Assembly (NCBI GenBank): GCA_022072125.1
Contig: JAJVIH010000020.1
Location: forward strand, 1-64,000
Reading direction: 5' to 3'
Origin: Myxococcota bacterium
Lineage (GTDB): Bacteria > Myxococcota > JAJVIH01
Length of the DNA: 64,000 nt
In this document: positions 16,833 through 29,446 of the stretch, piece by piece
Numbering within the stretch: the stretch's first letter is position 1
Layout: each line of letters opens with the position of its first letter
The notes under the pieces: generated by a model
What the model saw: the letters and a program-made list of their open reading frames with translations, nothing else
What the model was told of the DNA's origin: nothing
Database searches by the model: none
Translations under genes and position numbers: made by a program

Positions 16833-18842
<2,010 letters not shown>

Positions 18843-18851
18843 GGAACAGCT

Positions 18852-20279
18852 TCAGTCGAGAATGCCGTAGAGAAGTTCGCTTTCCGCTTCCTTGTAACGG
18901 TCCTGCCCTTCCTTCACCAGGTTCTGGATTTGCGGCGAAGCGGCGCTGACCACGCGGGGGGTCACGAAGACCAGCAAATCGGTCTTGCGATCCGTGAACG
19001 TGCGCTGCCGGAAGAACTCGCCCAGGATGGGAATATGCCCCAGGCCGGGGAATTTGGTGACATCCTTGCCTTCGCTCCACTCGAACAGGCCGGACAGCGC
19101 CACGGTTTCGCCCGAGCGGACCGCCACGCTGGTGGAAATGCGGCGGACGCGGAATCCGGGGATGCCCTGAACCGACAGCGACTGGTCCACATCCGACACT
19201 TCCGACAGGATTTTGGTGCGGATATTGCCCGCCTTGTCAGCCACCGGCTCCATGGACAGACGGACGCCGAACTCCTTCCATTCCACCGCGATTTGATTCT
19301 GGGTGATCAGCGGAATCGGGATTTCGCCGCCAGCCAGGAAGCTGGCCTTGTCGCCCGAAGCGCACACCAGCTTGGGCTGGGCGAGCACGCGGGCGTACCC
19401 ATCGTTGAACTGCATGCCAAAATTGAAGTTGGCGTTGCCCAGGCCTTCGATCCGGAAAAGCGAGGAGTCGTTGCCCGGCCCCAGCAGGATTTTTTCATAG
19501 GCCAGCGTGGGATTGACCGTTCCGGAAATGTCCAGAGGCAGCTTGGCGCCGATCTTGTCGTTGCTGTTCTTCTTGATCTCCACGAACTGCACTTCGATGT
19601 AGATCAGGAAGTTGACGCCCACGGTGAGCAGGTTGACCACGTCGCGGCCCAGCGCCGACAAAAGCAGATCGGCCTTGCGCAACTCCTCCTTGGTGGAAAC
19701 CGATCCTTCCAGGAAAATCGTGTTGCCAATGACCACCGCGCGGGCGTCCTTCAGGCCGTTGTTGATGAGCGTGGCGGAGATGGTGTCGGCGACGGATTTG
19801 GCGGCGCTGGCGTCCAGGCGCACCAGGTTCTTGACGTTGCCGTACATCTTGGACAGTTCGTTGACACGATCGAAGTCCTCGGTCGAATAGGCCACGCCCT
19901 CGATCACGATTTCATCGCCCACCATCCGGACATCAATGCCCTGACGGTTCCCCAACTCCCGCTTGAGGTCCCGCAGGTTGGCGCTGGAGCCCCCCTTGCC
20001 CACGACGACCGCATAGTTTTCCTGCCCCTTGTCCTTGAACAGGATCAGCGAGGTCCGGCCCTGTCCCACGCCGGTGACGATGATCTTGTTGTCTCCCAGC
20101 ACCTTGACATCGGCGATGGCGGGGTCGCCAATCGAGATTTTCTTGACCCCGGAGACATTCACGACCTTCTGTTCGCCCACACTGATGTACAGGGTGCGCT
20201 CGTCATTCTGCGCCCAGGCCGCAGACACCCACAACAGCGGACACATCACAAATAACAGCAAGCCCAGACGGTTCAGCAT
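18852..20279 (-). CDS. cpaC: CpaC/RcpA-type secretin (Tad pilus outer-membrane channel)
   Basis: 475 residues with a cleavable signal peptide (LLLFVMCPLLWVSAAWA). The N-terminal pilus-formation domain (VVNVSGVKKISIGDPAIADV) is followed by a BON/N1-like domain. The C-terminal secretin barrel contains QPKLVCASGDKASFLAGGEIPIP and VALSGLFEW. Such proteins form the outer-membrane pore of Tad/Flp pili. It is the first gene of the four-gene minus operon, with a good GGAGAGGGG Shine-Dalgarno. No prepilin, prepilin peptidase, TadB/TadC, TadE or TadZ gene is present nearby, so the system is either split across the genome or reduced. Confidence 0.93.
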   Translation of the reverse strand: MLNRLGLLLFVMCPLLWVSAAWAQNDERTLYISVGEQKVVNVSGVKKISIGDPAIADVKVLGDNKIIVTGVGQGRTSLILFKDKGQENYAVVVGKGGSSANLRDLKRELGNRQGIDVRMVGDEIVIEGVAYSTEDFDRVNELSKMYGNVKNLVRLDASAAKSVADTISATLINNGLKDARAVVIGNTIFLEGSVSTKEELRKADLLLSALGRDVVNLLTVGVNFLIYIEVQFVEIKKNSNDKIGAKLPLDISGTVNPTLAYEKILLGPGNDSSLFRIEGLGNANFNFGMQFNDGYARVLAQPKLVCASGDKASFLAGGEIPIPLITQNQIAVEWKEFGVRLSMEPVADKAGNIRTKILSEVSDVDQSLSVQGIPGFRVRRISTSVAVRSGETVALSGLFEWSEGKDVTKFPGLGHIPILGEFFRQRTFTDRKTDLLVFVTPRVVSAASPQIQNLVKEGQDRYKEAESELLYGILD

Positions 20280-20696: not shown

Positions 20697-20725
20697 TTGA
20701 CACCCCAACCTGCTGGTGCTTGTAT
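20697..20725 (+). promoter_or_regulatory. Candidate sigma-70 promoter of the receptor operon
   Basis: A perfect -35 hexamer TTGACA (20697-20702) is followed after 17 bases by TTGTAT (20720-20725), a weaker -10. Transcription would start near 20732, ten bases before the palindrome at 20741, so a repressor there could block initiation or early elongation. Confidence 0.45.
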
Positions 20726-20740
20726 CTCTCCCCGTGAACA

Positions 20741-20763
20741 TTATTGCAACTTAATTGCAATAA
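20741..20763 (+). promoter_or_regulatory. Fur-superfamily-type operator (23-bp palindrome)
   Basis: The core ATTGCAACTTAATTGCAAT is extended by TT/AA on each side, giving 10 complementary pairs of 11 around a central T. It can be read as TTGCAA-N5-TTGCAA, the layout I recall for the nickel-responsive Nur box of Streptomyces, or as a 9-1-9 Fur-type repeat. It lies just after the promoter and 9 bases before the receptor start codon. The AT-rich motif stands out sharply from the GC-rich surroundings. Which Fur-family protein (Fur, Zur, Nur, Mur) binds it cannot be told from one site. Confidence 0.6.
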
Positions 20764-20771
20764 ATCCACGG

Positions 20772-23441
20772 ATGATTCAGCCCTCCCATTTTCCAGCACG
20801 GGATGAACAGGCACGGCCCGCCGGACGGGAACGCGCCATTTTCCTCTGCGCCGCCGCGCTGGCCTTGTGGACGCTGGGAGTCTCCGCGATTTCGGACGCC
20901 AGCGGCCATTCCCATGGTCCCGCCACCCAGCCCGCGCTGATTCAGGGGCTGGACCCCGCCGTGCATCCGGACCAGTTGCCGGCCAGCGCTCCCGTCCATG
21001 CGGTCTATATCTTGTGCGTGGATGACGCGGGTTCGGTCTCCAGCGTGCAGGTGGCGACTCCGGCTGGTCCGGTGCTGGATGACGCCTTCAAGGCCGCCGC
21101 CCGGCAATGGCGTTTTCAACCCGCCATGGTGGATGGCAAACCGGTCGTCAGTCATATCAGCGTGCATTATGCCTTCCAGCCCCGTGAGGCGGTGCGGGAT
21201 CAAGGCGCGCCGGCGGCGGTGGCGACCCATACCCATCCAGCGGGAGATCCCCATCACGGCCACTGGTCGGAGGATCCCCACCATTCCCATGAAGCGGGTC
21301 CGGGGGCGGCGACCGCCGCTTCCGCCACCGCTCCCGCGGCCGCGGAGCCGCTGGAGGCGGACCTCCCCATCACCGTGGTGGGGCGAAAGGAGCCGCCCAG
21401 CCGGGGCGCTTCCGACTTCAACCTGCGGGTGGGCGAACTGGGCCGCGTGCCGCGCCTGAACGGCGCCCAACTGCTTCAACTGGCGCCCGGCATCCTGTTG
21501 ACCAACGAAGGAGGGGACGGCCACGCCCATCAGATTTTCCTGCGCGGCTTTGACGCCCGCGAAGGCCAGGACATCGAATTCAGCGCCGCCGGGGTCCCCC
21601 TCAATGAAGTGGGCAATCCCCATGGCAATGGCTACGCCGACCTGAATTTCATCATCCCCGAACTGGTGCTGAACCTTCGCGTGGTGGAGGGGCCTTACGA
21701 TCCCCACCAGGGCAATTTCGCGGTGGCGGGGAGCGCGGAATACGAACTGGGAATGACCAAACGCGGGTTGATGACCAAATACATGACGGGATCGTTCAAT
21801 ACCCATCGTCTGGCGGCGGCCTGGGGACCCGGGGGCGAAAGCGAAGGAACCTTTGGCGGCGCCGAATTGTTCACCTCTGATGGCTTTGGCCGCAACCGCG
21901 ACAGCAAGCGGGGATCGGTGATTGGACAATACGAAGGCAAGCTGGGCGCCAAGGGCCTTTACCGCCTGGGATTCTCTGGCTACGCGGCGGATTATCGCAG
22001 CGCGGGGGTGCTCCGCGAGGATGAATACCTGGCCGGCCGCGTGGATTTTTTTGGAACCCATGATCCCAATCAGGGCGGCGACGCGCAGCGTTTTTCCCTG
22101 TGGGCGGGACTGGACGCCGCCGCGAAGTCCGTGGCGTTCCATCAATTGATGTGGCTGACCTTCCGCGGGATGCGGGTGCGCGAAAACTTCACCGGCTTCC
22201 TGCTGGATGTGCAGGAGCCCCGCCAGCGCCCCCACGGACAGCGCGGCGATCTGCTCGACAGCGACAGCACCGCCTGGACCATCGGCGGCAAAGGCTCCGC
22301 CCGGTTGCACAAAACCTGGCTCGGTCAGGTTCAGGAACTCGAACTGGGTTACTTCGCCCGTTATGATCTGGTGGATGCAATTCAAATGCGGGTGCAGGGC
22401 GCCAACAATATCCCCTACTCCCGCGAAACCGATTACCACGCCAAACTGGCGGATATCAGCCTGTTCGCCGACGGCAACCTGAGGCCGCTGGAATGGCTGA
22501 CGCTGCGCGGAGGCGTGCGCGCGGGGCTTTACACCTTCAATATCCTCAACCGCTGCGCGGTGGATGACGTGCGCAGACCTTCCCGTCCGCCGGGGGACGC
22601 CTCGTGCCTGGATCAACAGGATTTCGGCTACTACCGCGATCCCGCTCAGCGGGCGAATACCTCCGGCCTGGCGGTCATGCCGCGCGCCGCCCTGCTGCTG
22701 GGGCCATGGTGGGGGATCACCCCCTCGTTCAGCTACGGACATGGCGTCCGCTCGATTGATCCGGCGTATATCATCCAGGATTCAACCACGCCGTTCGCGG
22801 GCATCCGCGCGTACGAAGGCGGGCTGACCTGGCGCGGCGTCACTCCGGACATGGAAATCCTGGTGCGGGGGGCGGGCTTCGTCACGCAGGTGGAGCGGGA
22901 CTACATCTTCAGCGAAACCGCGGGGCGCCCCGTGATCGGCGGCGGAACCACGCGGGTGGGCGCCATGACCTCCCTGCGCCTCACCGGAAGACATTTTGAT
23001 CAGGCGGCGAACGCCACCTTTGTCCACAGCACTTTCGACGACACCGGTTTGCTGGTTCCCTACAACCCCGATCTGGTGCTGCGTTCCGACACCGCCGCCT
23101 TCACGGATTTTCCGTGGACCCTGGCCGGAGAAAAAACCGGCGGGGCCCTGTCCATGGGAATCACCTGGGTGGGGAAGCGCCCCCTGCCCTTCGACACCCG
23201 CGGCGACGCCATCTTCACCATTGACGCCAGCGCCACCCTGTCATGGTGGATCTGGGAAGCCGGCGTGATGGCGACCAACCTGCTCGACAACCGCTACCGC
23301 CTGGGCGAATACAACTTCGCCTCCAGCTTTACCCAGCAGGGCGCTCCATCGCTGGTCCCCGCGCGGCATTTCGCGGCGGGCGCGCCGCGCGCCATCTACT
23401 TCGTGCTGACCATGCTGATTCCGGCGGAGGATGAGTCATGA
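20772..23441 (+). CDS. TonB-dependent outer-membrane receptor with N-terminal TonB-type domain and His-rich linker
   Basis: 889 residues from the ATG at 20772. The upstream in-frame extension would overlap the promoter and operator. A signal peptide covers about residues 15-40 (AIFLCAAALALWTLG). Residues about 76-136 match a TonB C-terminal-like fold (VDDAGSVSSVQVATPAG, AARQWRFQPAMVDGKPV), normally found at the end of the energy transducer. A His-rich linker follows at about 152-175 (HTHPAGDPHHGHW, DPHHSH). The plug begins near 200 (LNGAQLLQLAPGI) and carries GGDGHAHQIFLRGFDAR; the rest is a 22-strand-type barrel. Receptors take up scarce ligands across the outer membrane using TonB energy. 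The His clusters and the palindrome suggest a metal or metallophore. It overlaps the next gene by ATGA. Confidence 0.87.
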   Translation: MIQPSHFPARDEQARPAGRERAIFLCAAALALWTLGVSAISDASGHSHGPATQPALIQGLDPAVHPDQLPASAPVHAVYILCVDDAGSVSSVQVATPAGPVLDDAFKAAARQWRFQPAMVDGKPVVSHISVHYAFQPREAVRDQGAPAAVATHTHPAGDPHHGHWSEDPHHSHEAGPGAATAASATAPAAAEPLEADLPITVVGRKEPPSRGASDFNLRVGELGRVPRLNGAQLLQLAPGILLTNEGGDGHAHQIFLRGFDAREGQDIEFSAAGVPLNEVGNPHGNGYADLNFIIPELVLNLRVVEGPYDPHQGNFAVAGSAEYELGMTKRGLMTKYMTGSFNTHRLAAAWGPGGESEGTFGGAELFTSDGFGRNRDSKRGSVIGQYEGKLGAKGLYRLGFSGYAADYRSAGVLREDEYLAGRVDFFGTHDPNQGGDAQRFSLWAGLDAAAKSVAFHQLMWLTFRGMRVRENFTGFLLDVQEPRQRPHGQRGDLLDSDSTAWTIGGKGSARLHKTWLGQVQELELGYFARYDLVDAIQMRVQGANNIPYSRETDYHAKLADISLFADGNLRPLEWLTLRGGVRAGLYTFNILNRCAVDDVRRPSRPPGDASCLDQQDFGYYRDPAQRANTSGLAVMPRAALLLGPWWGITPSFSYGHGVRSIDPAYIIQDSTTPFAGIRAYEGGLTWRGVTPDMEILVRGAGFVTQVERDYIFSETAGRPVIGGGTTRVGAMTSLRLTGRHFDQAANATFVHSTFDDTGLLVPYNPDLVLRSDTAAFTDFPWTLAGEKTGGALSMGITWVGKRPLPFDTRGDAIFTIDASATLSWWIWEAGVMATNLLDNRYRLGEYNFASSFTQQGAPSLVPARHFAAGAPRAIYFVLTMLIPAEDES

Positions 23442-24238
23442 AGGCCGGCCTGATCCTGTGCGCCTGCGCGGCGGTCCTGCTTTCCTGCGGCAGCGCGGGC
23501 AGCGGTCTGCTGGAGTTCGACGCCTTCGCGGCGGGCCCGGCGGACATCGCCGCCAACCAGCCGCTGAAATTCCGGAACGGCCGGGGCTATGCGATCACCC
23601 TGGAGCGCGCGACTCTGTGGATGGGCGCGCTTTACCTGAACCGCAGCCGTCCTTCCGCCGGCGCCCAGGAAACCAGTTGCATCCAGCCGGGCATCTATAT
23701 GCTGGAGGTGCGGGAAGGCCTGCGCGTCAACCTGCTGGACCCCAATCCGCAACAATTTCCCCGGCGCGGAAACGGCACGGAAGACCCGGCCGTCAACGGC
23801 GAAATCTGGCTGCTCGGACCCAACAACGATGTCAACGCCCAGGAAGACCCCACGGTGATCATGGAAGCCGCGGGGGTGGCGGAAAAGGACGGCGTCCGCT
23901 GGCCCTTCGAGGCCCGTTTCACCATCGGCGGCAACCGGGCCATTCCGCAGCGCGACCCGTTCCGCCCCGGAGCGGATCCCATGTGCAAACAGCGGATCAT
24001 CACCGGCATCGCGGCGGATTTCACGCCCCGGGATGGCGGCGGCCTGCTGGTGCGCGCCGACCCCCGCGCCTGGTTCCGGAACGTGGAGTTCGCGGAGTTG
24101 CAGGCCGATCCGGAAAAGCCCGGCCAATACCGGTTCCTGGATCGCAGCGAAGGGCAGCCCAATATCGCCCTCTACGAGGGATTGCGGGCCAATACCGGCG
24201 TTTATGAATTCACCTGGCGGAGTCCAGGAACCCCCTGA
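23438..24238 (+). CDS. Putative metal-operon lipoprotein 1
   Basis: 266 residues with a lipoprotein signal peptide (ILCACAAVLLSC, lipobox LLSC at about residues 14-17). The mature protein begins with a segment LKFRNGRGYAITLERATLWMGAL, a pattern like the start of MbnP-type metal-operon proteins; I cannot confirm the family. Four or more cysteines (for example ETSCIQPG and PMCKQRI) could form disulphides or bind metal. Its start overlaps the receptor stop by four bases, so it is translationally coupled. It may be a surface or periplasmic partner of the receptor. Function is inferred only from this coupling and from its resemblance to the next lipoprotein. Confidence 0.72.
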   Translation: MKAGLILCACAAVLLSCGSAGSGLLEFDAFAAGPADIAANQPLKFRNGRGYAITLERATLWMGALYLNRSRPSAGAQETSCIQPGIYMLEVREGLRVNLLDPNPQQFPRRGNGTEDPAVNGEIWLLGPNNDVNAQEDPTVIMEAAGVAEKDGVRWPFEARFTIGGNRAIPQRDPFRPGADPMCKQRIITGIAADFTPRDGGGLLVRADPRAWFRNVEFAELQADPEKPGQYRFLDRSEGQPNIALYEGLRANTGVYEFTWRSPGTP

Positions 24239-24294
24239 TGCGAGAAGGAGAGGAGGACCATCACACCGGCCTGGCCGGGACATGGAGAGCAACA

Positions 24295-25476
24295 ATGAAG
24301 AGAACGACAATCGGACGGCTGTGGAGCCTGTTTCCCGCGGCCTTGCTGGTCACCGCCTGCGGCGGGGATGGCGATTCCACCGCAAAGGTCAAGGTCACCA
24401 TATCGGGAGAGCGGCTGGGATTGAACGGCTTGGCCTATCCGCCCGCTGCCGGGCAGGAGGCGGCCTTCGCGGATGGCTGGGAGGTCAAATTCGAGCACGC
24501 CCTCGTGACCGTGGACAACATCCGCCTGTCCGGAAATCCGGACAATTCGCCCACCGACAAATCGAAAACCGGCGAGGCCGTGGCGGAACTGAAAGGCCCC
24601 TTCGCCGCGGACCTGGCCAAACCCGGCCCGCTGCCGGGAAAAGGCGGAGAGGGGGACAAGGCCTTTGAACTGGGGGTGATTCCCAATCAGACGCTGAAGA
24701 ACGGCGCCGCGTTTCAGACCGATGAACGATACGCCTTCGGATACGAAATCGTCACGGCGTCCAGTTCCGCCAAACAGATCGGCTTCGACGAGGACAGCAA
24801 AAAGCTCTACGCGGAAATGATCGAAAAGGGCTATTCCATGCTCGTCACGGGAACCGCCGCCTGGAAGGGCCAGAATTGCACGCCGGACGATCCGGTTTTC
24901 AGCGCCATGCCGAAAACCGTCAAAATCAAGTTCGCATTCAAGTCGCCCGCCCAGTACATCAACTGTGAGAATCCGGACAACAACCCCGCCAAGCCCTTCG
25001 ATGGCGAGGAGTCCCAACGCGGCATCGCGCTCAAAACCAATACGGAGACCATCGCCCAGGCGACCATCCACCTGGACCACCTGTTCTTCTCGTCGTTCGA
25101 GCATGATCCGCCGCTCTACTTCGATCAGATCGCCGCCCAGTACATGGGCCAGCAAAACCCCACGGCCACGCTGGAAGACATGGCGAAGGTGGATTTCCAG
25201 GCCTTCAAGACCAGCGATGGAAAACCCCTGCCCTGGCGCAAATGCTGGGAAAAAGCCGAGGCCCAAAGCGGGCAGCGATCCTTCAAGGTGGAAGGCGTTC
25301 CGGTGGATCCATCCGCAGCCCCCGGCGCGGCGTTGCGCAACTACGCGGATTATATCACCTACAACCAGACCACCCTGGGGCACCTGAACGCGGATGGCCT
25401 GTGTTATACCGTTCCCAAATACCCCTCGCCGATGACGGGCGGCGGAGGCCGTCCTGACGATGATCACGATCATTGA
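24295..25476 (+). CDS. Putative metal-operon lipoprotein 2
   Basis: 393 residues from the ATG at 24295, which has a GGAGA Shine-Dalgarno ten bases upstream. An in-frame ATG at 24238 would hide the signal peptide. The lipobox is LLVTAC, followed by GGDGDS. The segment [20 protein letters not shown] aligns in register with GRGYAITLERATLWMGALYL of the preceding lipoprotein (shared Gly, aromatic, Glu, Ala, Leu), suggesting a related beta-sandwich. Paired cysteines occur in the second half (QNCTPDD, INCENPD, RKCWEKA, GLCYTVP). The protein ends DDDHDH, a likely metal-binding tail. It is last in the operon and is followed by a strong terminator. Confidence 0.72.
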
Positions 25477-25519
25477 TCGGTCAATCCCGGTTCGCCGCCG
25501 GGGGAGACTGTGAATGGAG

Positions 25520-25548
25520 CCGGCGCCGCGATCGCGGCGCCGGTTTTT
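25520..25548 (+). terminator. Intrinsic terminator of the receptor operon
   Basis: A perfect 24-bp GC palindrome (25520-25543, half-site CCGGCGCCGCGA) is followed by TTTTT (25544-25548). It begins 43 bases after the stop of lipoprotein 2. The palindrome ends just short of the stop codon of the convergent gene at 25548, so it separates the two units. Confidence 0.85.
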
Positions 25549-26549: not shown

Positions 26550-26808
26550 CGCCGCGCCGCTGTTTTCCGCTCAACCCTGACATTCGCAAAATATCTGACC
26601 CTGGGACCGCCGCTCCGGTCTTCCGGTGAGGATGGCTCCCCGCGCCTCCCCCAAACACGTCCCCTTGCTTGCCGCCCGGAGGGCATGACGGCGCCGGGCG
26701 CCAATCAGGCCGGAAAAACCTCTCACACGGCGCGCCCGCGGGCAAAACTTCGCGCTTGCGGGGGCTGTCCGCGTGCGGCATGATATCCGCGTTTCAACAA
26801 TTTCCAAC

Positions 26809-28080
26809 ATGGTTCAGACAGACACTTCAGAAACCCGCGCATTGCGGCTGGATGCGGATGACCCGCTGGCCCGGTTCCGGCGGGAATTCCTGATTCCGGA
26901 GGGCGCCGGGGGGCAGCCCGCCGTGTACTTTTGCGGCAATTCGCTGGGGCTTCAGCCGCGCAACGCGCGGCGGCTGATTGAAGAGGAGTTGGACGCCTGG
27001 GCCCGCTTGGCGGTGGAAGGGCATTTTCACGCCGTCCGGCCCTGGTATTCCTACCACGAACTGTTCACGGAAAGCGGCGCGCGCCTGGTGGGCGCCAGGC
27101 CCGGCGAAGTGGTGATGATGAACGGCCTGACCGCCAATCTGCACCTGATGCTGGCGAGCTTTTACCGCCCGGCGGGCGGGAGGACGAAAATCCTGATGGA
27201 GGGGTCGGCCTTTCCCTCCGACACCTATGCATTGCAAAGCCGGTTGAAGCTGCTGAACCTGGATCCGGCGCAACACCTGATCGTGCTCCATCCGCGCGGG
27301 GGCGAGGAAAACCTGCGCACGGACGACATCCTCGCGGCGATTGAACAGCATGGCCGCGAACTCGCCCTCGTGATGTTCAGCGGCGTGCATTATTACACCG
27401 GCGAGTATTTTGATCTCCCGCGCATCATCGAGGCGGCGCACCGCGCGGGGGCCTTCGCCGGGTTTGACCTGGCCCACGCCGCCGGCAACCTGCCGCTTGA
27501 ACTGCACGGCTGGAACGCCGACTTCGCCGTCTGGTGCAGCTACAAATACCTCAACGCCGGACCAGGCGCGGTGGCGGGTTGTTTCGTTCACGAACGCCAT
27601 GGCAAGGACCCCTCGATTCCCCGCATGGCGGGCTGGTGGGGAAATGACCCCTCCACCCGGTTCCGCATGCACCTCAATGCGGAATTTGTTCCGCAACCGG
27701 GAGCGGCGGGCTGGCAACTGAGCAATCCGCCGATCCTGGCGCTGGCGCCCCTGCTGGCCTCGCTGGAGATCTTCGATCAGGCGGGGATGGCGGCCCTGCG
27801 GGCGAAGTCGCTGCAACTGACGGGGTACCTGGAGAGCCTGCTGGATCAATCGCCGCCCGGCCGGGTGCGATCCCTGACGCCGCGCGATCCGGAGCGGCGG
27901 GGCTGCCAGCTTTCGCTGTGCTTCGAGCGGGGCGGGCGCGAACTTCATCAGGCGCTGACACAGGCCGGATGCATCTGCGACTACCGCGAGCCCGGGGTGA
28001 TCCGCGTGGCCCCGGTTCCGCTCTACAACAGCTTCCACGATGTGTGGAGATTCCACCGGGTGATTGAACAACATGTCTGA
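26809..28080 (+). CDS. kynU: Kynureninase
   Basis: 423 residues, normal length for this PLP enzyme, which cleaves kynurenine or 3-hydroxykynurenine to (3-hydroxy)anthranilate and alanine. The family start FCGNSLGLQPR appears at about residue 40. The PLP lysine lies in WCSYKYLNAGPG, and FDLAHAAGN holds the cofactor-binding Asp. The start at 26809 is preferred over an in-frame ATG 12 codons earlier because family sequences begin close to it. It overlaps the monooxygenase gene by eight bases, so the two are coupled. With kynurenine 3-monooxygenase it forms the middle of the tryptophan-kynurenine route; tryptophan dioxygenase and 3-hydroxyanthranilate dioxygenase are not in the window. Confidence 0.95.
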   Translation: MVQTDTSETRALRLDADDPLARFRREFLIPEGAGGQPAVYFCGNSLGLQPRNARRLIEEELDAWARLAVEGHFHAVRPWYSYHELFTESGARLVGARPGEVVMMNGLTANLHLMLASFYRPAGGRTKILMEGSAFPSDTYALQSRLKLLNLDPAQHLIVLHPRGGEENLRTDDILAAIEQHGRELALVMFSGVHYYTGEYFDLPRIIEAAHRAGAFAGFDLAHAAGNLPLELHGWNADFAVWCSYKYLNAGPGAVAGCFVHERHGKDPSIPRMAGWWGNDPSTRFRMHLNAEFVPQPGAAGWQLSNPPILALAPLLASLEIFDQAGMAALRAKSLQLTGYLESLLDQSPPGRVRSLTPRDPERRGCQLSLCFERGGRELHQALTQAGCICDYREPGVIRVAPVPLYNSFHDVWRFHRVIEQHV

Positions 28081-29446
28081 ACCCACGCCCGATGTAGCCA
28101 TCATGGGGGCCGGGCTGGCTGGCGCGCTGGCCGCCGTCTACCTGGGCCGGCGGAATCTCCGGGTGGAACTCTATGAAAAGCGTCCCGACATGCGCAAACA
28201 GACGGTGGATCGCGGGCGATCCATCAACCTGGCGCTGTCGGCGCGCGGCATTCACGCGCTGGAGCAGGCGGGCGTCGCCGCGGGGATCATGGAGAAGGCG
28301 ATCCCCATGCGCGGCCGCATGATGCATTCCACCAGCGGTGAATTGACCTTCCAGCCCTACGGCGTCAAGGACACCGACGTGATCAATTCGGTGTCCCGCG
28401 CCGGCCTCAACATGGCGCTGCTGGACGCGGCGGAAAAACTGCCCAACGTGTCCATCCGCTTCGCGCATCCCTGCATGGATGTGTCGCTGGACCCCTTCTT
28501 CGCGGAAGTGCGCGACGGCGTTTCCGGCGAGATCAAAAAGGTCGAAGCTCCCCATATCATCGGGGCGGACGGCGCTTTCTCCGCGGTGCGCGCCCGGCTG
28601 ACGAAGCAGGATCGTTTTACCTGCCGCCAGGAATTTCTCGAACACGGCTACAAGGAGTTGACCATCCCCCCCACGGCCGGCGGCGATTTCGCCATGGAGC
28701 CCAACGCCCTGCACATCTGGCCGCGCGGCGCCTTCATGCTGATCGCCCTGCCCAACGCCGACAAATCCTTCACCTGCACGCTGTTTCTGCCTTTCCTTGG
28801 ACGGGGCGCCTTCGAGCAACTCCACTCGCCCCAGGCCGTGACGGATTTCTTCCACGCCACCTTCCCCGACGCCGTGCCGCTGATGCCCCGGCTGAAAGAG
28901 GAGTTTTTCGCCAACCCCACCAGTTCACTGGTGACCATCCGCTGCGGTCCCTGGCATGTGGGCGGAAAACTCACCCTGCTGGGCGACGCCGCCCACGCCG
29001 TCGTGCCTTTTTACGGCCAGGGAATGAACGCGGCGTTTGAAGACTGTTTTTACCTGGACAAGATCATCCATGAATCGAACGGCGACTGGGAGCATGCTTT
29101 CCGCAGGTATTACGAGGCGCGAAAGCCCAATACCGACACCCTGGCGGAACTGGCCCTCGAAAATTTTGTCGAGATGCGGGACAAGGTCGCGGACCCGGCT
29201 TTTCTGCGCAAGAAGAAATTTGAAAAGACCCTCGCCCGGCTTTTTCCCAAATCCTATATCCCCTTGTACACCCTGGTCAGCTTCACCCTCACGCCCTATG
29301 CGGAGGCCGTCGAGCAGGCGCGCATGCAGGATGCGGTGGTCGAGAGGATTGTGAATGACCTGCGGCGCGCCGGCATCGCCATCACCATTATCCTGCTCAC
29401 CATTCTGGCGATGTCCCTGTTTGGTCCCGAGGCCAGCCTTCCTTGA
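28073..29446 (+). CDS. kmo: Kynurenine 3-monooxygenase
   Basis: 457 residues of FAD-dependent aromatic hydroxylase. The FAD motif GAGLAG lies at residues 12-17. The KMO-typical segments DRGRSINLALSARG and LLGDAAHAVVPFYGQGMNAAFEDC follow. It hydroxylates kynurenine to 3-hydroxykynurenine using NADPH and oxygen. The last 25 residues hold a hydrophobic run (AGIAITIILLTILAMSLFG) long enough to cross or anchor to a membrane, as in mitochondrial KMO and unlike the soluble Pseudomonas enzyme as I recall it. The start may be 28073 or 28064; the first lies inside the ATGTCTGA overlap with kynU. Confidence 0.95.
   Translation: MSEPTPDVAIMGAGLAGALAAVYLGRRNLRVELYEKRPDMRKQTVDRGRSINLALSARGIHALEQAGVAAGIMEKAIPMRGRMMHSTSGELTFQPYGVKDTDVINSVSRAGLNMALLDAAEKLPNVSIRFAHPCMDVSLDPFFAEVRDGVSGEIKKVEAPHIIGADGAFSAVRARLTKQDRFTCRQEFLEHGYKELTIPPTAGGDFAMEPNALHIWPRGAFMLIALPNADKSFTCTLFLPFLGRGAFEQLHSPQAVTDFFHATFPDAVPLMPRLKEEFFANPTSSLVTIRCGPWHVGGKLTLLGDAAHAVVPFYGQGMNAAFEDCFYLDKIIHESNGDWEHAFRRYYEARKPNTDTLAELALENFVEMRDKVADPAFLRKKKFEKTLARLFPKSYIPLYTLVSFTLTPYAEAVEQARMQDAVVERIVNDLRRAGIAITIILLTILAMSLFGPEASLP

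Follow-up and report, generated by a model that had tools for sequence, protein, structure and literature searches.

Which substrate is taken up by a TonB-dependent receptor whose gene is preceded by a perfect palindrome and followed by the genes of two lipoproteins? This gene group lies in a stretch of 64,000 nucleotides of a Myxococcota bacterium (the window; contig JAJVIH010000020.1 of GCA_022072125.1). The window is on contig C4 of a home assembly of 3.97 Mb in 78 contigs that is 96% complete. A sequence-only reading had proposed the uptake of zinc, nickel or copper under an operator of the Fur superfamily. The comparative evidence described here speaks strongly for metal uptake under such an operator, with zinc as the favoured metal of the three, whereas two of the clues first given for it, a DDDHDH tail and a histidine-rich linker, were wrong. 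As judged from the sequences, the three genes are probably a zinc-starvation operon under a Zur-like repressor of the Fur family.

Organisation of the operon

The three genes are on the plus strand, the receptor gene at 20772-23441, the lipoprotein gene LPA at 23438-24238 and the lipoprotein gene LPB at 24295-25476, and are followed by a terminator. The receptor and LPA genes overlap by ATGA at 23438-23441. The start of LPB is best placed at the ATG at 24295, which leaves 56 bp between it and the stop codon of LPA, and both lipoproteins have a lipobox (LLSC, VTAC), as expected from the earlier description of two lipoprotein genes in the same direction with an overlap and a short gap. The strong terminator that had been described was also found. 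At about 25518-25548 of the plus strand, a long G+C stem is followed by UUUUU, which gives a Rho-independent type of structure with -31.2 kcal/mol and z = -6.4. The following gene is encoded on the minus strand and converges on this terminator, which a pattern-based scan missed. An Rfam search of the operon region found no RNA element.

A candidate promoter on the plus strand at 20697-20725 was read from the sequence, with a perfect TTGACA at 20697-20702, 5' of the palindrome, and a weak -10 element, TTGTAT, at 20720-20725. The best -10 candidates, TTGTAT or TGTATC, match the consensus at 3 of 6 positions each, and the consensus promoter scan made no call at 20697-20725. The promoter named in the earlier reading is therefore plausible, but not strong.

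Upstream of the operon, CpaF-like and CpaC-like genes (Tad pilus/secretin) are found on the minus strand at 16833-20279 of the window. Downstream, kynureninase-like and kynurenine 3-monooxygenase-like genes follow on the plus strand at 26773-29446. These assignments were made from the translations by eye, and the flanking genes have no obvious functional tie to the operon.

The receptor and the two lipoproteins

The receptor gene starts best at the ATG at 20772 and encodes 889 residues. The assignment to the TonB-dependent receptors was supported in Pfam, with TonB_C at the N-terminus (8.9e-08) and the Plug domain PF07715 (33.7 bits, cut-off 23.9, 5.7e-08). A 22-strand barrel with a domain of the PF00593 type was sought, and no barrel family reached an E-value of 1 in Pfam; the long C-terminal half could be aligned in 18 relatives and its end is barrel-like. 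Searched with the receptor family profile, the PDB gave only the YncD/PqqU plug (2.7e-07) and no ZnuD structure. Beyond this plug, single-sequence and profile searches of the PDB with the receptor, LPA and LPB returned nothing useful.

Between TonB_C and the plug, a histidine-rich linker is encoded at 21225-21294 of the plus strand. It is present as had been reported, but the family alignment showed no conservation in the relatives, and the linker is lost as a clue since it is peculiar to the home genome. The GHAHQ sequence of the plug (21519-21533, plus strand) fared better, being kept in part by the relatives as G-[DE]-GHA-x-Q. In the alignment of the receptor family, the GHA motif of the plug and a HGNGYAD stretch are conserved.

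Besides the two domains, Pfam and NCBIfam gave only a partial match below the cut-off to MxcH, the myxochelin receptor (NF038079 equivalog). This is the sole full-length family hint for the receptor, covering TonB_C and the plug only, and with 72.7 bits against a cut-off of 925 the assignment was rejected. A siderophore (iron) or zincophore receptor of the MxcH type, which would import a small-molecule chelate with the lipoproteins as accessories, is very unlikely, as no siderophore synthesis genes were recognised beside the operon in the inspected loci and the genes linked to the operator point to zinc rather than iron.

LPA (266 residues, beta-rich) and LPB (393 residues) had no family match in Pfam or NCBIfam. 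In 89 LPB sequences, H259, H262 and F264 are conserved at 100%, D261, H363, C224 and C370 at 98%, and E39, D60, G61 and W62 at 94-96%. The HxDHxF motif (H259-F264; 25069-25086, plus strand) and the GH motif (G362-H363; 25378-25383, plus strand) thus contain candidate metal ligands. Conservation makes a metal site in LPB plausible and a disulphide possible. In LPA the structural residues are kept, yet a ligand set of His, Asp or Cys was not found besides the lipobox cysteine. Conserved residues support the idea of a metal-handling partner for LPB, but not for LPA. The DDDHDH tail of LPB (25456-25473, plus strand) exists, but is peculiar to the home genome and unconserved in the relatives, and it was dropped as a metal clue. 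LPA and LPB appear to be distant relatives of one another along roughly 100 residues at the N-terminus (hhalign probability 93%, to which the signal peptide contributes a part).

AlphaFold2 models of the two lipoproteins were built from 17-18 sequences and reached pLDDT values of 84.5 (LPB) and 83.2 (LPA). For both models the top match in the PDB was the copper protein MbnP, found with Foldseek as a weak match. The Foldseek probability was up to 0.97 for LPA, with a TM-score of up to 0.41, and 0.21 for LPB; no TM-score exceeded 0.41 for either lipoprotein. PF20243 and TIGR04052 were unmatched by LPA and LPB in Pfam and NCBIfam, and a MbnP profile from a dedicated alignment gave hhalign probabilities of 0.9% and 0.3% against the lipoprotein profiles. 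Membership in the MbnP family was rejected on these grounds. We read the likeness of the predicted models as a common beta-sandwich architecture and not as proof of kinship. Family searches and structure prediction, which had been proposed for the lipoproteins, thus gave good models and a weak best fold, but no family.

The MbnP match raises the alternative of a copper acquisition operon, in which LPA and LPB would be copper proteins similar to MbnP that hand over copper at the outer membrane. Small ORFs upstream of the receptor in relatives, described below, would fit this too, as they resemble the copper-sensing CruR (PMC9426467). We regard copper as improbable, given the low TM-scores and the lack of profile similarity to MbnP. 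The operon holds only the receptor, LPA and LPB, with no gene for the di-heme partner MbnH, and no copper genes were found under the operator, yet ZigA was.

Conservation of the operon in Myxococcota

Relatives of LPB were found in 35 of 146 genomes of the same phylum, and in 11 of these, the home genome among them, the match was strong. In a species-wide collection, 80 contigs had LPB relatives, nearly all with titles of Myxococcota or 'delta' groups. The three-gene neighbourhood was then looked for in the relatives, as the earlier reading had suggested, and the order receptor-LPA-LPB on one strand was kept at 70 of the 89 distinct LPB loci, essentially all from Myxococcota. Among the other loci, many are truncated where a contig ends. 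The receptor and the two unannotated lipoprotein families occur again and again, in Myxococcus and Corallococcus and as far away as Polyangia. One record titled Comamonas sp. KCTC 72670 (BNCN01000020.1, our locus L136) has an operon of the Myxococcus type with a leader ending in AMPQGP, and is probably a mislabelled or contaminated assembly.

The operator palindrome

The palindrome TTATTGCAA-CTTAA-TTGCAATAA at 20741-20763 is 23 bp long with perfect arms of 9 bp, as had been seen in the first reading, and its chance expectation in the window is 0.00. It ends 8 bp before the receptor ATG at 20772. We looked for its core, TGCAA-N5-TTGCA, in 67 distinct regions of 750 bp 5' of the receptor. The exact core was present in 11 regions against 0.03 expected from Markov shuffles, and the core with at least 9 of 10 positions in 20 regions against 0.63 expected. 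Eleven control palindromes had zero exact matches in the same 67 regions. Most Myxococcus and Corallococcus copies of the operon are without the operator. In locus L128 a second exact operator (L128:8988) lies between LPA and LPB directly before LPB, which suggests a separate control of LPB.

The home genome had no convincing second copy, and the site is effectively unique there. Two candidates, C1:121960 with two mismatches and C1:213352 with the exact core in G+C-rich flanks, had no recognisable metal gene behind them and were counted as chance matches or left undecided. One match was also obtained with the reversed control pattern in the home genome, and the COG0523 gene of this genome has no operator. 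Taken alone, the single site in the home genome would refute the metal-uptake proposal by the criterion set in the sequence-only reading, a palindrome that occurs only here and not before metal genes. The relatives alter this picture, since there it was found before ZigA, COG0523, Fur-type, MerC and transporter genes.

Genes linked to the operator in relatives

The operator sites were inspected in genomes picked for carrying the operon, and many had no recognisable neighbour gene; the list of linked genes is therefore a pattern and not a complete regulon. In three genomes the exact operator is directly before a gene for the zinc metallochaperone ZigA (the proteins of L178 and L151 pass the cut-off of the NCBIfam equivalog, and that of L115 is closely similar). 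It also precedes other COG0523 GTPase genes (L169, L170, L120), MerC-family genes (L200, L169, L076), LPB paralogues (L195, L183, L097, L128) and genes for small secreted histidine-rich proteins in operon-carrying relatives. In L170 it is before an ABC-2 cassette that is followed by an AztD-like propeller. Fur-family regulators occur with the exact operator in L183, where the regulator gene is divergent from a LPB paralogue, and in L080 and L076, next to the receptor. Zur is known to control COG0523 genes, the ABC-2 transporter ZnuGHI and TonB receptors (PMC6103462, PMC4176598, PMC2770081). Since ZigA, COG0523, ABC-2 transporter and TonB receptor genes share one operator, as in known Zur regulons, a Zur-like zinc regulon is indicated.

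Several further observations were made at these sites. One contig, represented by L169 (G148:C281:17000-34000) and L151, has eight exact operators within about 22 kb beside ZigA, COG0523, MerC, NicO-like and Fur-type genes, and is a metal island. The AztD-like beta-propellers (L170:5226-9184 and L125:4497-5738) scored 60-62 bits, far under the AztD cut-off of 400; they are from one genome, one beside the operator-bearing ABC-2 cassette and one beside the receptor operon. At L177:3240 and L188:3463 the operator precedes a gene for ribosomal protein S18 in its Cys-rich (zinc-ribbon) form, which counts against zinc. In Zur regulons, a Cys-free S18 paralogue is expected, not the Cys-rich form. An ORF in L194 that had been taken by eye for a ZIP transporter proved to be ArsP/SO_0444-like and was dropped as evidence for zinc import.

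The main rival to zinc is a nickel or cobalt acquisition operon of the same anatomy under a Nur-like repressor. The sequence TTGCAA-CTTAA-TTGCAA matches the Nur box (tTGCaa-N5-ttGCAA, PMC3919588) perfectly. In L055, the relative that comes nearest to the window by its LPB, the operator is directly before CbiM-CbiQ-CbiO-COG0523 (L055:11963-15292), a cluster that follows the receptor operon at a distance of about 3 kb. Such clusters normally serve nickel or cobalt. A NicO-like gene in L169 also has the operator nearby. Against nickel and cobalt stand the zinc equivalog ZigA under the operator in three genomes and the home genome, in which [NiFe] hydrogenase, urease and CbiM, taken as markers of nickel use, are all absent; we consider this alternative unlikely.

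Fur-family regulator genes were linked to the operon in L080, L076, L151 and L183. The home genome encodes a Fur-family protein (L207:1304-1813, minus strand; G000:C51:1388-1684) that is 40-47% identical to three of the operon-linked regulators, and L207 is most likely the Zur-like repressor of the home genome. The metal specificity is unreadable from the regulator sequences themselves. Also in favour of zinc, the 96% complete home assembly has no ZnuA, so the search for a standard ABC importer with high affinity for zinc came back empty; the only ZIP match was below the threshold.

A receptor and lipoprotein pair could also import a carbohydrate or another nutrient, as in SusC/SusD, where TonB receptors for carbohydrate uptake are paired with lipoproteins. 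Such a non-metal function is extremely unlikely for this operon. The operator is enriched far over chance and common to metal genes, Fur-type regulators stand beside the operon, and LPA and LPB have no match to SusD or a carbohydrate family in Pfam.

Leader ORFs upstream of the receptor in relatives

At 35 of the 67 loci the receptor is preceded by a small ORF for a membrane protein with many His or Cys residues, which ends in an invariant motif. The C-terminus is APKxxPP in 15 loci and AMPQGP in 20. Among 11,913 ORFs of the same loci, duplicates included, these endings occur 24 and 23 times, so nearly all of them sit 5' of the receptor. Beyond the 35 loci, RGPP was seen near the leader C-terminus in L137 and L146. 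In all, leader ORFs are upstream of the receptor in L055, L057-L060, L067-L070, L076-L079, L083, L084, L088, L095, L103, L117 and L123-L150, and in L060, L079, L088, L095 and L117 an operator matching at 9 of 10 positions is upstream of the leader. The window has no leader ORF, and the operator abuts the receptor ATG. An assignment to DUF2946 was rejected, with only 9.5 bits against 23.7.

RGPP is a strong ribosome-arrest motif that was described for small ORFs preceding TonB receptors (PMC12992588), and CruR is the copper-sensing leader of a TonB receptor operon in Bordetella (PMC9426467). By analogy, the ORFs are possibly metal-sensing leaders.

A proposed model for zinc import

The operon structure, the conserved gene order, the enrichment of the operator and its sharing with zinc genes in relatives were all computed. 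From them we infer a model that proposes which metal is moved, in which direction control acts, on which side of the membrane the lipoproteins work and what LPA and LPB each do. At high zinc, a Zur-like repressor, with L207 as the candidate, would bind TGCAA-N5-TTGCA between the promoter and the start codon and block transcription. At low zinc the operator would be freed, and the receptor, LPA and LPB would be made together. The receptor would move zinc, a zinc complex or a zinc protein through the outer membrane, energised by TonB. The lipid-anchored LPB may bind the metal with its invariant HxDH...GH residues, to pass it on to the plug of the receptor on the cell surface or else to receive it in the periplasm, and LPA may be the structural partner within the pair.

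A wider proposal is more doubtful, although conceivable. The operon might represent a phylum-wide zinc system with two new lipoprotein families, in which LPB binds zinc at the surface or in the periplasm and has a dedicated receptor, and to which about half of the carriers add tuning by a leader. A nascent peptide rich in His or Cys would sense the metal and stall the ribosome at its invariant C-terminal motif, APKxxPP, AMPQGP or RGPP, as a zinc counterpart of CruR.

Comparison with known systems

A close parallel is found in Caulobacter crescentus, where ZnuK, ZnuL and ZnuM with ZnuGHI (PMC4176598) likewise include a TonB receptor under a palindrome of the Fur superfamily. COG0523 and ABC-2 genes are under the same operator in the Caulobacter Zur regulon, as they are here in the genomes of relatives. 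In contrast, the Caulobacter operator is of the TGTTATNNNATAACA type (PMC4176598), and no lipoprotein pair is mentioned with the receptors ZnuK, ZnuL and ZnuM, which were compared by description only. The ZnuD-type zinc receptors of Neisseria and Acinetobacter share the proposed TonB-dependent zinc import and histidines in the plug or loops, but the family profile of our receptor matched the YncD/PqqU plug and no ZnuD structure in the PDB. The Nur regulon of Streptomyces coelicolor (PMC3919588) has a box that the operator fits, whereas the associated genes here include ZigA and no nickel enzymes were found in the home genome.

For the lipoproteins, MbnP (PDB 7L6G), which is associated with methanobactin, is the best Foldseek match and is similar as a secreted beta-rich protein with its gene next to a TonB receptor. 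It differs in the TM-scores of at most 0.41, the unaligned profiles, the unmatched PF20243 and the missing MbnH partner. ZepA of Anabaena was considered as a parallel and discarded, as the text (PMC10957091) has neither a lipoprotein nor MbnP. The leaders of the relatives are comparable to the CruR (DUF2946)-BfrG operon of Bordetella pertussis (PMC9426467), with an exported ORF rich in metal ligands before a TonB receptor, and to the RAPP/RGPP arrest peptides (PMC12992588), with a conserved proline-rich C-terminus in the same position. Unlike these, they have no significant DUF2946 match, the window has no leader and the downstream genes differ.

TonB-dependent zinc import under a repressor of the Fur superfamily is already known. 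Judging from the literature searched, neither the lipoprotein pair nor the operator nor the taxonomic setting seems to have been described, in line with the sequence-only reading, which had recognised no described system. For Myxococcota, the open literature searched gave no account of a zinc regulon or of zinc import through the outer membrane. Our analysis yields an operator that can be tested, TGCAA-N5-TTGCA, together with a candidate for its regulator, a receptor and two lipoprotein families that lack annotation. The leader ORFs of the relatives make the hypothesis of metal-sensing arrest peptides directly testable, and a Nur-box sequence in a probable zinc context cautions against assigning metals by the operator sequence alone.
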